Shown: positions 30,446 to 63,165 of the stretch, in pieces
Layout of the letters: each line of letters starts with the position of its first letter
How positions within the stretch are numbered: position 1 is the stretch's first letter
From: Gemmata palustris
GTDB taxonomy: Bacteria; Planctomycetota; Planctomycetia; Gemmatales; Gemmataceae
Assembly (NCBI RefSeq): GCF_017939745.1
Contig: NZ_JAGKQQ010000001.1
Span: 2,480,001-2,544,000, forward strand
Length of the DNA stretch: 64,000 nt
Direction: 5' to 3'
The notes under the pieces: generated by a model
The model's database searches: none
Seen by the model: only the letters and a program-made list of their open reading frames with translations
What the model was told of the DNA's origin: nothing
Translations under genes and position numbers: made by a program

Positions 30446-30493
30446 GTCCCACTTCTCGACACCCGCCCTCGAGCGGGTGTCGAGAAGTGGGAC
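30446..30493. repeat. Long perfect inverted repeat (21-bp stem)
   Basis: 30446-30466 pairs exactly with 30473-30493 around the loop CCTCGA. No U-tract on either side. It sits in a 350-bp gap (30247-30594) with no other feature and is not obviously downstream of a gene. Confidence 0.6.
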
Positions 30494-39648: not shown

Positions 39649-39826
39649 CTCCCCGATGCCATGACATCCACAGGAGGACGCTCGCCTTATCGCTTCCTAA
39701 CACGCGCGCGAATCTCTTACGGGAATCGGACGGCCGCCGCGGCGTCACGCGCGCCCGTTGAGGTGCGCGAACAGCGACGAGAACAGGATGAATCGCATAG
39801 CGGTGGCCCGCGGCAATCGAACTCAC

Positions 39827-39889
39827 CACGAGCCTTACACCCTCCCAGTGGGGCAACGTTGCCCCCAGTGGGAGGGTGTAAGGCTCGTG
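39827..39889 (-). repeat. Long nested inverted repeat after the Flp pilin gene
   Basis: 21-bp perfect arms (39827-39847 and 39869-39889) around a 21-nt centre that is itself nearly palindromic (GGGGCAACGTTGCCCC). It starts 19 nt after the pilin stop, so a terminator or mRNA-stabilising role is plausible, but no U-tract follows. Confidence 0.6.
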
Positions 39890-39908
39890 TTCAATGCGCG
39901 AAGTTCAC

Positions 39909-60833: not shown

Positions 60834-60848
60834 GCGAGCCAAAGAACA

Positions 60849-60958
60849 CACAGGGCTTCCGCCCTGTGCTACGAAAGACGGCCCCTCCGGGGCGAAAACC
60901 AAACCCCTCTTCCGCTGCGGAGCGGCCGGCGTTTGTAGCACAGGGCGGAAGCCCTGTG
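60849..60958. repeat. Composite palindromic repeat downstream of BBP7
   Basis: Two 24-bp arms (60849-60872, 60935-60958) are exact reverse complements. Each arm is itself a hairpin, CACAGGGCTTCCGCCCTGTG. It lies 15 nt after the stop codon. Looks like a REP/MITE-type dispersed repeat also usable as a terminator. Confidence 0.7.
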
Positions 60959-61056
60959 CGCTCTTGTCTCAACAAACACAAAAGCCTCCAGTCATCGAAA
61001 TGAATGGAGGCCGCAATTGACGGATACCGATTTCCGACACAACTCGGCCGCTTCGC

Positions 61057-61521: not shown

Positions 61522-61848
61522 TGACACGTCTCCGTCTTGCGCGACGAATCGAGTTTAAATGACCCGAAACGCGCTGCGCTCGGTCCTGGTCGTTGGTTCG
61601 ATCGGGGTAGTACCGCAAGCCCCGTACCTTACGTGGGTGTTTGCGGTTGTGGTGTGACGAGCCGTGCGACGACTTCCTTATCGTCGTACCGAGAAGACGA
61701 GAGACCGGGTGCGTTCTAACATCGCGCTCGGGCACGGACTAAAAACATACTCCACAGCTCACACATGAGTCAGATTGCAGTCGTGAATCTGCGCCGTGTG
61801 CGGTACCGGGCGCACACCCGATTGTCGAAATGCGTTCTAAGCTGTGGC

Positions 61849-63165
61849 ATGACTTCTCGTAATGTTTTCTCACTCGCAGTTCTGGCCCTCGTTGGGGTTT
61901 TGCTCGCCGGCCAGGTACGGCAATTACTCGCCGACCCGACCGTGTGGCCCCCGGACGATTTCGTCGAATACTGGGCCGCGGCGAAACTGACGTTGAACGG
62001 GCAGAACCCGTTCGATGAGTCGCTGTTGCTGCCGCTCCAACAGTCCGCCGGGCGCGACACGCCCGAAGCGATCATGATGTGGAACCCGCCGTGGTCGCTC
62101 CCCGCGGTGCTGCCGCTCGGTCTGTTGCCCGCGCGCGAAGCTCAACTGCTGTGGCTCCTCGTTCACCTCATCGTCACCGGCTTCTGTGCGGACCGGGCGT
62201 GGCTCCTGCTCGGTGGGGCGCGCGAGCGGCGGTGGATCGGCTGGGCGGTCGCGTTCACGTTCATGCCGACCGTGTTCGCCCTTTCTATCGGGCAAATCAG
62301 CATGTTCCTCGTGCTCGGTGCGGTGCTGTTCCTCGAATGCGAGCGCCGGGCCGTCAAAAACCGCTCGTGGGAATACTGCGCGGGCGCGGCGACCGTACTC
62401 GTGGCGATAAAACCGCATCTCGCGTACCTGTTGTGGGCCGGTATCGTGGTGGACGCAGTCGTTCGCGGCCGGTGGCGCGTGCTCGCGGGCGGCGCGGTGA
62501 TGGGGCTGGCATGTGCCCTGCTCCCGCTGGCATTTAACCCGCAGGTGTGGCACCAGTACGCGGACGCGATGGGGAACCGCCCGCCGGCTCAGTGGATCTC
62601 GCCCACGCTCGGTTCGGTGCTGCGAATGGCGTTCGGAGAACAGCTTTTCCGACTTCAGTTCGTTTCCGTCGGAATCGGAGTGATTTGGTTCGTATGGTAC
62701 CGGTGGGCAAAACGGAACACATGGGACTGGACGGAGCAGCTCCCGCTGCTGCTGCTCGTGTCGTTCGTCACCGCGCCGTATGGCGCGTGGCCGTTCGACA
62801 TGGTATTGTTGCTCCCGGCAGTATTCGCGATGGTGATTGGGGAGAACCTACCCCCAGCCCCCCTCCCTGAAGGGAAGGGGGACCGAACTTCCGCGCTCAA
62901 GTGTTACCTCCCCAACCACAGAGGTGCACGCGCCGGCTCCCCCTTCACTTCAGGGAGGGGGGCTGGGGGGGTAGGTTCTCCCCCAATCCTTGCTGGTCTT
63001 CTCGCCGTGAATTTGGGTTGCCTCGTGATAAACCTGCTCCAACTCGGCTCGTTCTGGTTCCTGTGGGTGTCGCCCGCCGTGCTTCTCCTGTATGTGGTTC
63101 ACACGCAGCGCCCCCACGAAGCGCGAGCCAATCTCGCACCCCGAACCGCCGCGGTGACGGCATGA
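61849..63165 (+). CDS. GT87-type (DUF2029) membrane glycosyltransferase with an in-frame palindromic insertion
   Basis: 438 residues with about ten membrane helices. Landmarks of polyprenyl-phosphate-sugar-dependent GT87 enzymes: DFVEYWAAAKLTLNGQNPFDE near the N-terminus, MMWNPPWSLPAVLPLGLLP, SIGQISMFLVLGAVLFL, AIKPHLAYLLW. Residues about 330-378 (ENLPPAPLPEGKGDRTS...GGVGSPP) are low-complexity and encoded by a 145-bp inverted repeat inserted between two helices. ATG 61849 from the conserved start. The stop overlaps the next ATG (ATGA). Confidence 0.8.
   Translation: MTSRNVFSLAVLALVGVLLAGQVRQLLADPTVWPPDDFVEYWAAAKLTLNGQNPFDESLLLPLQQSAGRDTPEAIMMWNPPWSLPAVLPLGLLPAREAQLLWLLVHLIVTGFCADRAWLLLGGARERRWIGWAVAFTFMPTVFALSIGQISMFLVLGAVLFLECERRAVKNRSWEYCAGAATVLVAIKPHLAYLLWAGIVVDAVVRGRWRVLAGGAVMGLACALLPLAFNPQVWHQYADAMGNRPPAQWISPTLGSVLRMAFGEQLFRLQFVSVGIGVIWFVWYRWAKRNTWDWTEQLPLLLLVSFVTAPYGAWPFDMVLLLPAVFAMVIGENLPPAPLPEGKGDRTSALKCYLPNHRGARAGSPFTSGRGAGGVGSPPILAGLLAVNLGCLVINLLQLGSFWFLWVSPAVLLLYVVHTQRPHEARANLAPRTAAVTA
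62839..62983. repeat. In-frame palindromic insertion inside the GT87 gene
   Basis: Arms 62839-62872 and 62948-62983 are reverse complements except for a 2-nt difference in a C-tract, with about 75 nt between. The reading frame is kept through the insert, adding about 48 Pro/Gly-rich residues between two membrane segments. Confidence 0.75.

Follow-up and report, generated by a model that had tools for sequence, protein, structure and literature searches.

In the window, the whole 64,000-nucleotide stretch of Gemmata palustris DNA that was analysed, a GT87-type membrane glycosyltransferase gene lies on the plus strand at 61765-63165 (466 codons from the first ATG; assigned by ORF, Pfam and orthologs). 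The 466-aa host protein matches Pfam GT87 at E 5.8e-17, and its match in the PDB, at E 0.029 only, was left unused. Similarity to orthologs begins only at about residue 22-24, and the true start may for this reason be the ATG at about 61849. An inverted-repeat search locates a near-perfect palindrome within this gene at 62839-62983. Its outer arms (62839-62855 and 62967-62983, 17 nt) are 100% complementary, and its inner arms (62851-62882 and 62938-62969, 32 nt, separated by a spacer of 55 nt) are 97% complementary. The palindrome strand folds at -115.5 kcal/mol, compared with -67±4.8 for shuffled sequences (z -10.2). The ORF runs unbroken across the palindrome, and the preliminary description, in which an inverted repeat at these positions leaves the frame of a GT87-type gene open, is confirmed by the arms, the fold and the 466-aa ORF.

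Each arm of the palindrome itself folds as a hairpin, so that two REP-like units stand face to face. The arm motif occurs in the 64-kb window only in these two arms, where 0 occurrences are expected. Comparison from copy to copy delimits a common, putatively mobile unit of 133 bp, AACCTACC...GGTAGGTT, at about 62845-62977, a boundary set from the copies themselves without a clean empty site. Its left REP-like unit (62845-62882, plus strand) consists of the tag CCTACC and the hairpin CCCCCCTCCCTGAAGGGAAGGGGG and reads NLPPAPLPEGKGD. A variable loop with a translation of about RTSALKCYLPNHRGARAG follows at 62883-62937; on the minus strand of the window copy this loop holds one TAA in the family frame. 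The right REP-like unit (62938-62977, minus strand) is inverted, ends in GGTAGG and reads SPFTSGRGAGGVGS. An Rfam scan of the palindromic stretch gave no family at gathering score; the RNA-family matches were to miRNA models only, with scores far below gathering, and were rejected as generic hairpin matches.

The insert would be read as GENLPPAPLPEGKGDRTSALKCYLPNHRGARAGSPFTSGRGAGGVGSPP, about 48 residues. It corresponds to residues 359-407 of the GT87 protein, contains 10 Gly and 8 Pro among 49 residues, and is flanked by hydrophobic segments on the Kyte-Doolittle scale, one ending at about residue 362 and the next starting at about 403. The earlier statement that about 48 Pro/Gly-rich residues are added between two membrane helices thus holds for the composition and the hydrophobic flanks; the number does not, since the nearest orthologs (genomes G008 and G010) have 33 nt at the site against 144 in the window gene, a net gain of 37 codons and not 48. 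The preliminary description had also proposed a comparison with orthologs lacking the insert. These two are without the element, but their 33 nt (11 other codons) mean that no clean empty site was obtained for GT87, and the direction of change at this site is therefore left unclaimed.

Copies of the element and their host genes

Within the Gemmata palustris genome (9.23 Mb, 3 contigs) BLAST gives at least 103 matches to the element (40 of 93 candidates scored), and a pattern search gives 85 hairpin units at no more than one mismatch and 0 for the reversed control pattern, both counts missing diverged copies since only BLAST and one hairpin pattern were used. The search for dispersed copies suggested by the preliminary description accordingly returns many, often in frame; as the two nearest orthologs also lack the element, neither of the outcomes that it named as refuting arises. 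Among 18 congeners the hairpin unit is present in 12, with 25 or more in 10 of the 18 and the highest number, 121, in G008; it is absent from the other six (G005, G009, G012, G013, G014 and G017). Outside the genus it occurs in 1 of 40 genomes. Scanned for exact 24-mer matches, GTDB genomes yielded 81 stretches, almost all of them from planctomycetes (Gemmata, Fimbriiglobus and other MAGs), with no Rickettsia among the stretches listed. Locus L256 of Gemmata sp. IIL30 has element and flank values equal to those of the G010 loci L194 and L207. Single exact 24-mer matches in an Armatimonadaceae MAG (L268) and a Paludibacteraceae MAG (L275) may be due to transfer, contamination or chance. Along contig C1 of G000, from 0 to 8 Mb, clusters per Mb number 2, 4, 3, 3, 7, 10, 13 and 13, the first half being poor in element clusters.

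Placement relative to genes was assessed at 55 loci around copies in the Gemmata palustris genome, with clusters classed by a trained home-made codon score and no gene caller. When only clusters with at least one unit at no more than one mismatch are kept (n=60), about half, 32, lie inside genes, in frame in coding-like ORFs, 2 are on the same strand and not open, and 26 are at an edge or intergenic, a distribution that is not mostly extragenic. The clusters dropped under this rule include L109, L125 and L138, which are in frame under a looser count (35 clusters in frame, within 33 ORFs). External clusters, mostly from planctomycete assemblies, comprise 45 in frame, 8 not open and 13 at an edge or intergenic (n=83, of which 17 were skipped as too near locus ends); 28 loci from the congener survey overlap in part with external loci and are excluded from the counts. 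When the same elements were placed at random in the genome's own DNA by simulation (n=3000), 759 were in frame, 864 not open and 1377 at an edge, and random native 140-bp stretches were in frame in 1589 of 3000 cases. Set against these native stretches, the 32 of 60 elements in frame show the repeats to be about as frequent in genes as ordinary DNA, and few copies break a frame (2 of 60 clusters, compared with 864 of 3000 simulated). Partial copies with a single unit are also in frame, and decay between the arms has kept the frame in the penicillin-amidase ortholog of G008, in which the element has a 90-nt in-frame internal deletion.

Many of the copies in frame lie in unrelated conserved genes. 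A Pfam family was found for 30 of the 33 host ORFs (none for L108, L132 and L140), and match coordinates place the element within or between Pfam matches in at least 17. Such hosts include RecO, Pnkp (two copies), penicillin amidase, CT_A_B carboxyltransferase, RsmB, HrpB, a zinc alcohol dehydrogenase, a dihydrolipoyl acyltransferase, UPF0261, an MFS/spermine synthase, a sulfatase-BNR protein, a TPR protein, two PSCyt2/PSD1 proteins, a ketosynthase/FabA protein, an AMP-binding protein and an acyltransferase/AMP-binding protein. RecO_N and KdtA_N have one Pfam match each in the genome, and both genes (RecO and KdtA) bear a copy. Alignment of the bacterial Pnkp ligase domain with 4drf breaks at query 775|823 (chain 285|292), that of the aldehyde dehydrogenase host with 3b4w at query 321|386 (chain 333|359), and that of the CT_A_B host with 5dud at query 168|241 (chain 130|172). 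Two copies at separate sites, both in frame, are found in one Pnkp gene (L118) and in an 1840-aa ORF (L145:1-5520).

Reading frames of the repeat

One of the three arm frames is closed by TGA, TAA or TAG and two are open. Of the 32 in-frame clusters of the genome itself, 29 use the favoured frame, PTPPSPLPEGKGE / SPFPSGRGAGGVGS. Single-unit copies in which both arm frames are open are in the favoured frame in 14 of 16 cases from this genome and 11 of 14 external ones, where 'favoured' means not matching the motif of the other frame. Dimers fall into spacing classes three bases apart: the main class, with a spacing of 74, 77 or 80, takes in 21 of 30 dimers of the genome and 13 of 14 in-gene dimers, and the spacing of in-gene dimers is 2 mod 3 in 13 of 14. 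In-gene dimers occur in both orientations (A 6, B 7).

Read on both strands, the 21 main-class dimers are free of stops in the favoured frame 41 times out of 42, compared with 25.6±3.1 after shuffling of the loops (max 35, n=2000), a test that overstates independence because the copies are related; the other arm-open frame, a comparison that shares this relatedness, is open in only 27 of 42 readings of the same dimers. Among the 42 readings of the favoured frame only one is not open, that of the window copy on its minus strand. All 16 readings are open in the 8 of the 21 dimers not scored as in-gene; 5 of the 8 are open into a neighbouring coding-like frame, and truly intergenic dimers open on both strands are therefore as few as three. 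Among external in-gene dimers the spacing is 2, 0 and 1 mod 3 in 13, 10 and 5 cases, a weaker form of the three-base rule, since the arm frames are paired in other ways there. Of 47 external dimers 7 are too near locus ends, and the 28 in-gene and 12 other dimers scored each have at least one frame open on both strands, a count made without a shuffle control.

Openness is kept and the peptide sequence is not conserved. Substitutions are spread evenly over codon positions with no third-position excess (p 0.45), and selection on the peptide sequence was rejected on that account. Judged from its sequence the repeat looks fitted to translation. Of the hairpin frames one is closed, the favoured one is free of stops on both strands, and a copy would therefore be readable in either orientation; such a both-strand rule suggests a repeat adapted to being translated. 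A translated copy would form a flexible Pro/Gly/Ser/Glu-rich linker of 20-50 residues, probably tolerated in loops or between domains with the function of the host protein retained.

Palindromes in orthologous protein loops

The loop of the GT87 protein that contains the element varies in length across the genus. Exact inverted repeats of at least 13 bp are found in it in 7 of 18 parsed orthologs, window copy included, with lengths of 22 bp in G000, 41 in G001, 32 in G015, 21 in G014, 19 in G003, 16 in G005 and 13 in G004; the other 11 have no inverted repeat of this length. Outside the parsed set, a facing pair is visible in the ortholog alignment for G007. The comparison of orthologs proposed in the preliminary description is thus complicated by 6 of the 17 parsed orthologs other than the window's, which have inverted repeats in the same loop, mostly of other families. 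In G001 the GT87 ortholog (L038) is read in frame through its exact inverted repeat of 41 bp, which belongs to another family. Loop peptides differ between orthologs, which points to several palindrome families and not to one old insertion.

Other host genes present comparable distributions. At the first Pnkp site inverted repeats occur in 6 of 9 testable orthologs and at the second in 2 of 8, and at the element sites of CT_A_B and penicillin amidase they occur in 5 of 10 and 4 of 8, the remaining orthologs of these three genes being truncated or absent. The Pnkp of G009 has a 35-bp exact inverted repeat. Repeat-free orthologs are mostly short-looped, e.g. the CT_A_B of G005 and G009, with an exception in G002, which is long at Pnkp site 1. 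G005 and G009 are without the present family yet carry other palindromes at Pnkp site 1, so that the hot spots are the loops themselves and not a single family. The Pnkp elements of G000 and G008 stand in opposite orientations; that one is an inverted form of the other was considered and rejected, since the loops are too unlike. Orthologous loops filled by different palindromes would offer a direct test of mobile DNA building protein loops, and element sites may serve as natural maps of insertion-tolerant protein positions.

Movement and relation to known repeats

Between L131 and one L118 copy the loops are 98% identical, from ACCTACC to GGTAGGTTC, and the flanks are unrelated. Copying has been recent, and by their sequences the copies have moved between sites. 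A target-site duplication of at least 3 nt was found in 0 of 19 dimers with five end offsets tried, and since the duplication is missing a single-strand mechanism would fit; the enzyme, which would act in trans, may be of the single-strand (HuH) type or another. It is highly probable that the element represents a mobile palindrome family of about 130 bp in Gemmata-type planctomycetes, with gene-blind insertion, frame-keeping survivors and predicted read-through linkers. The family unit would be two inverted REP-like hairpins around a variable loop of about 55 bp; copies would insert roughly regardless of genes, and those in genes would persist only if the frame is kept.

Rickettsia palindromic elements (RPEs) were reportedly described by Ogata et al. 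in 2000/2002. To our knowledge most known protein-coding palindromes come from Rickettsia, intracellular bacteria with small genomes; here a bacterium with a 9-Mb genome has tens of in-gene palindromes in conserved genes, single-copy ones among them. In three papers (PMC10969869, PMC2229807, PMC3733652) RPEs are dispersed palindromes of about 105-150 bp, many in frame in conserved genes, the RPE-bearing enzyme Gmk is reported active, and no target-site duplication is known. The likeness to RPEs drawn in the preliminary description is sustained in that the Gemmata element, too, is palindromic, about 100-150 bp long, bounded by terminal inverted repeats and dispersed, with many copies in frame within unrelated conserved genes. 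It differs in its high G+C, its phylum and its make-up of two REP-like hairpins. Palindromes of other families in the orthologous loops and a frame without stops on either strand are further traits of the Gemmata element that may set it apart from RPEs.

According to Di Nocera et al. (2013, PMC3733652), GTAG/CGTC REP dimers can lie inside genes, DNA-repair genes among them, and there encode 20-30 or more residues. The same source gives GTAG as an end tag of REPs, places most REPs in intergenic regions, describes different REPs at about the same site in recB of two Xanthomonas species, and mentions GTAG/CGTC REPs for Planctomycetes in general. Dimers of the Gemmata repeat likewise lie inside genes and are readable as protein; unlike GTAG/CGTC REPs, the repeat has no tag in the defining position and has a far larger genic share (32 of 60 clusters). 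Long inverted repeats within protein genes are also read through in nematomorph mitochondria (PMC6649704, accessible text), where, unlike in Gemmata, the arms encode conserved protein regions and a dispersed mobile family is not described. The accessible part of a 2025 REP survey (PMC12306157) has no mention of 'Gemmata' or 'Planctomycet', and a literature search, with subscription papers mostly outside its scope, returned no report of in-frame palindromic elements in Gemmata. The earlier remark that such elements are rarely reported in planctomycetes receives no firm support from these sources. By analogy the element appears to behave like RPEs or intragenic REPs and unlike a REPIN-RAYT system; it is a protein-coding palindromic repeat and is filed neither as an RPE nor as a REPIN-RAYT member.

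The element is unlikely to be an ordinary REPIN, a REP doublet mobilised by a RAYT/TnpA-REP transposase, with its in-gene copies mere survivors. Two inverted REP hairpins also make up the REPIN unit (Bertels and Rainey 2011, PMC3116915), and the missing target-site duplication is counted as a likeness to REPIN-RAYT systems. Outer-end tags, tens of copies and the presence of 3 Y1 transposase genes in the Gemmata palustris genome would agree as well. The tag of REPs stands directly 5' of the hairpin, whereas the GTAG of the Gemmata unit (GGTAGG) is 3' of it, a reversed polarity, and the repeat is often genic. No hairpin unit of the present family was found near the Y1_Tnp genes at 31 loci (3 own and 28 from relatives, flanks up to 1.5 kb), the 28 being drawn from about 70 listed matches in 21 genomes (own plus 20 relatives). 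Two loose unit matches near Y1 genes (L161, L173) proved on reading to be other sequences. The linkage test was able to succeed, since the Y1 locus L095 has GTAG-tagged hairpin dimers of another family on both sides, and G008, with its 121 units, has no Y1_Tnp match. The preliminary description had spoken of a MITE, and the size, terminal inverted repeats, dispersed copies and recent copying would suit a classical MITE with a DDE transposase acting on the terminal inverted repeats. This is nonetheless improbable, as the 19 dimers have no target-site duplication, the arms are themselves hairpins, and no full-length transposase-bearing relative with the ends AACCTACCCCC was encountered (no systematic census); with no mover found at the 31 Y1 loci either, the term is not upheld where it implies derivation from a DDE transposon.

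Palindromes could also form or be renewed in place, by template switching or gene conversion within flexible loops, which would explain unrelated palindromes in the same loops across species and the very long exact inverted repeats (GT87 of G001, 41 bp; PNKP of G009, 35 bp). There is little probability in such an origin here, for a sequence of about 130 bp at unrelated sites with nearly identical loops requires copying from site to site, and the same arms recur in tens of genes. Intron- or intein-like removal from RNA or protein, leaving the host protein free of the element, would suit the highly stable RNA hairpin. It is very hard to credit, as removal would make an open frame unnecessary, yet one frame is open on both strands; the lack of an Rfam family and the in-frame single-unit copies also speak against it. 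An ancestral GT87 loop in place of an insertion, to which the variable length across the genus and the 11 other codons of the two nearest orthologs might lend themselves, is equally far-fetched: the DNA recurs in tens of unrelated genes, and most parsed orthologs (11 of 18) are without an inverted repeat of at least 13 bp. The dispersed copies refute it, save for the direction of change in the GT87 gene.

Beyond a mobile family with gene-blind insertion and frame-keeping survivors, it can be proposed only tentatively, as a conceivable but less than even prospect, that genes are the repeat's main refuge, that both-strand readability evolved from in-gene donors and that the loops were lengthened largely by many palindrome families. 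Selection on host proteins would then keep in-gene copies open, new genic and intergenic copies would descend from them, and unrelated palindrome families would repeatedly colonise the same protein loops in these planctomycetes.

The GTAG-tagged family at L095 and the Y1 transposase there plausibly form a REP-RAYT pair. The same family is present in the window as an intergenic dimer at 60842-60965 (GTAGCACAGGGC...), or at 60850-60957 by narrower bounds. Strong inverted repeats are also found in the window at 39818-39898 (36-nt arms, 86%) and at 30446-30493 (21-nt arms, perfect).
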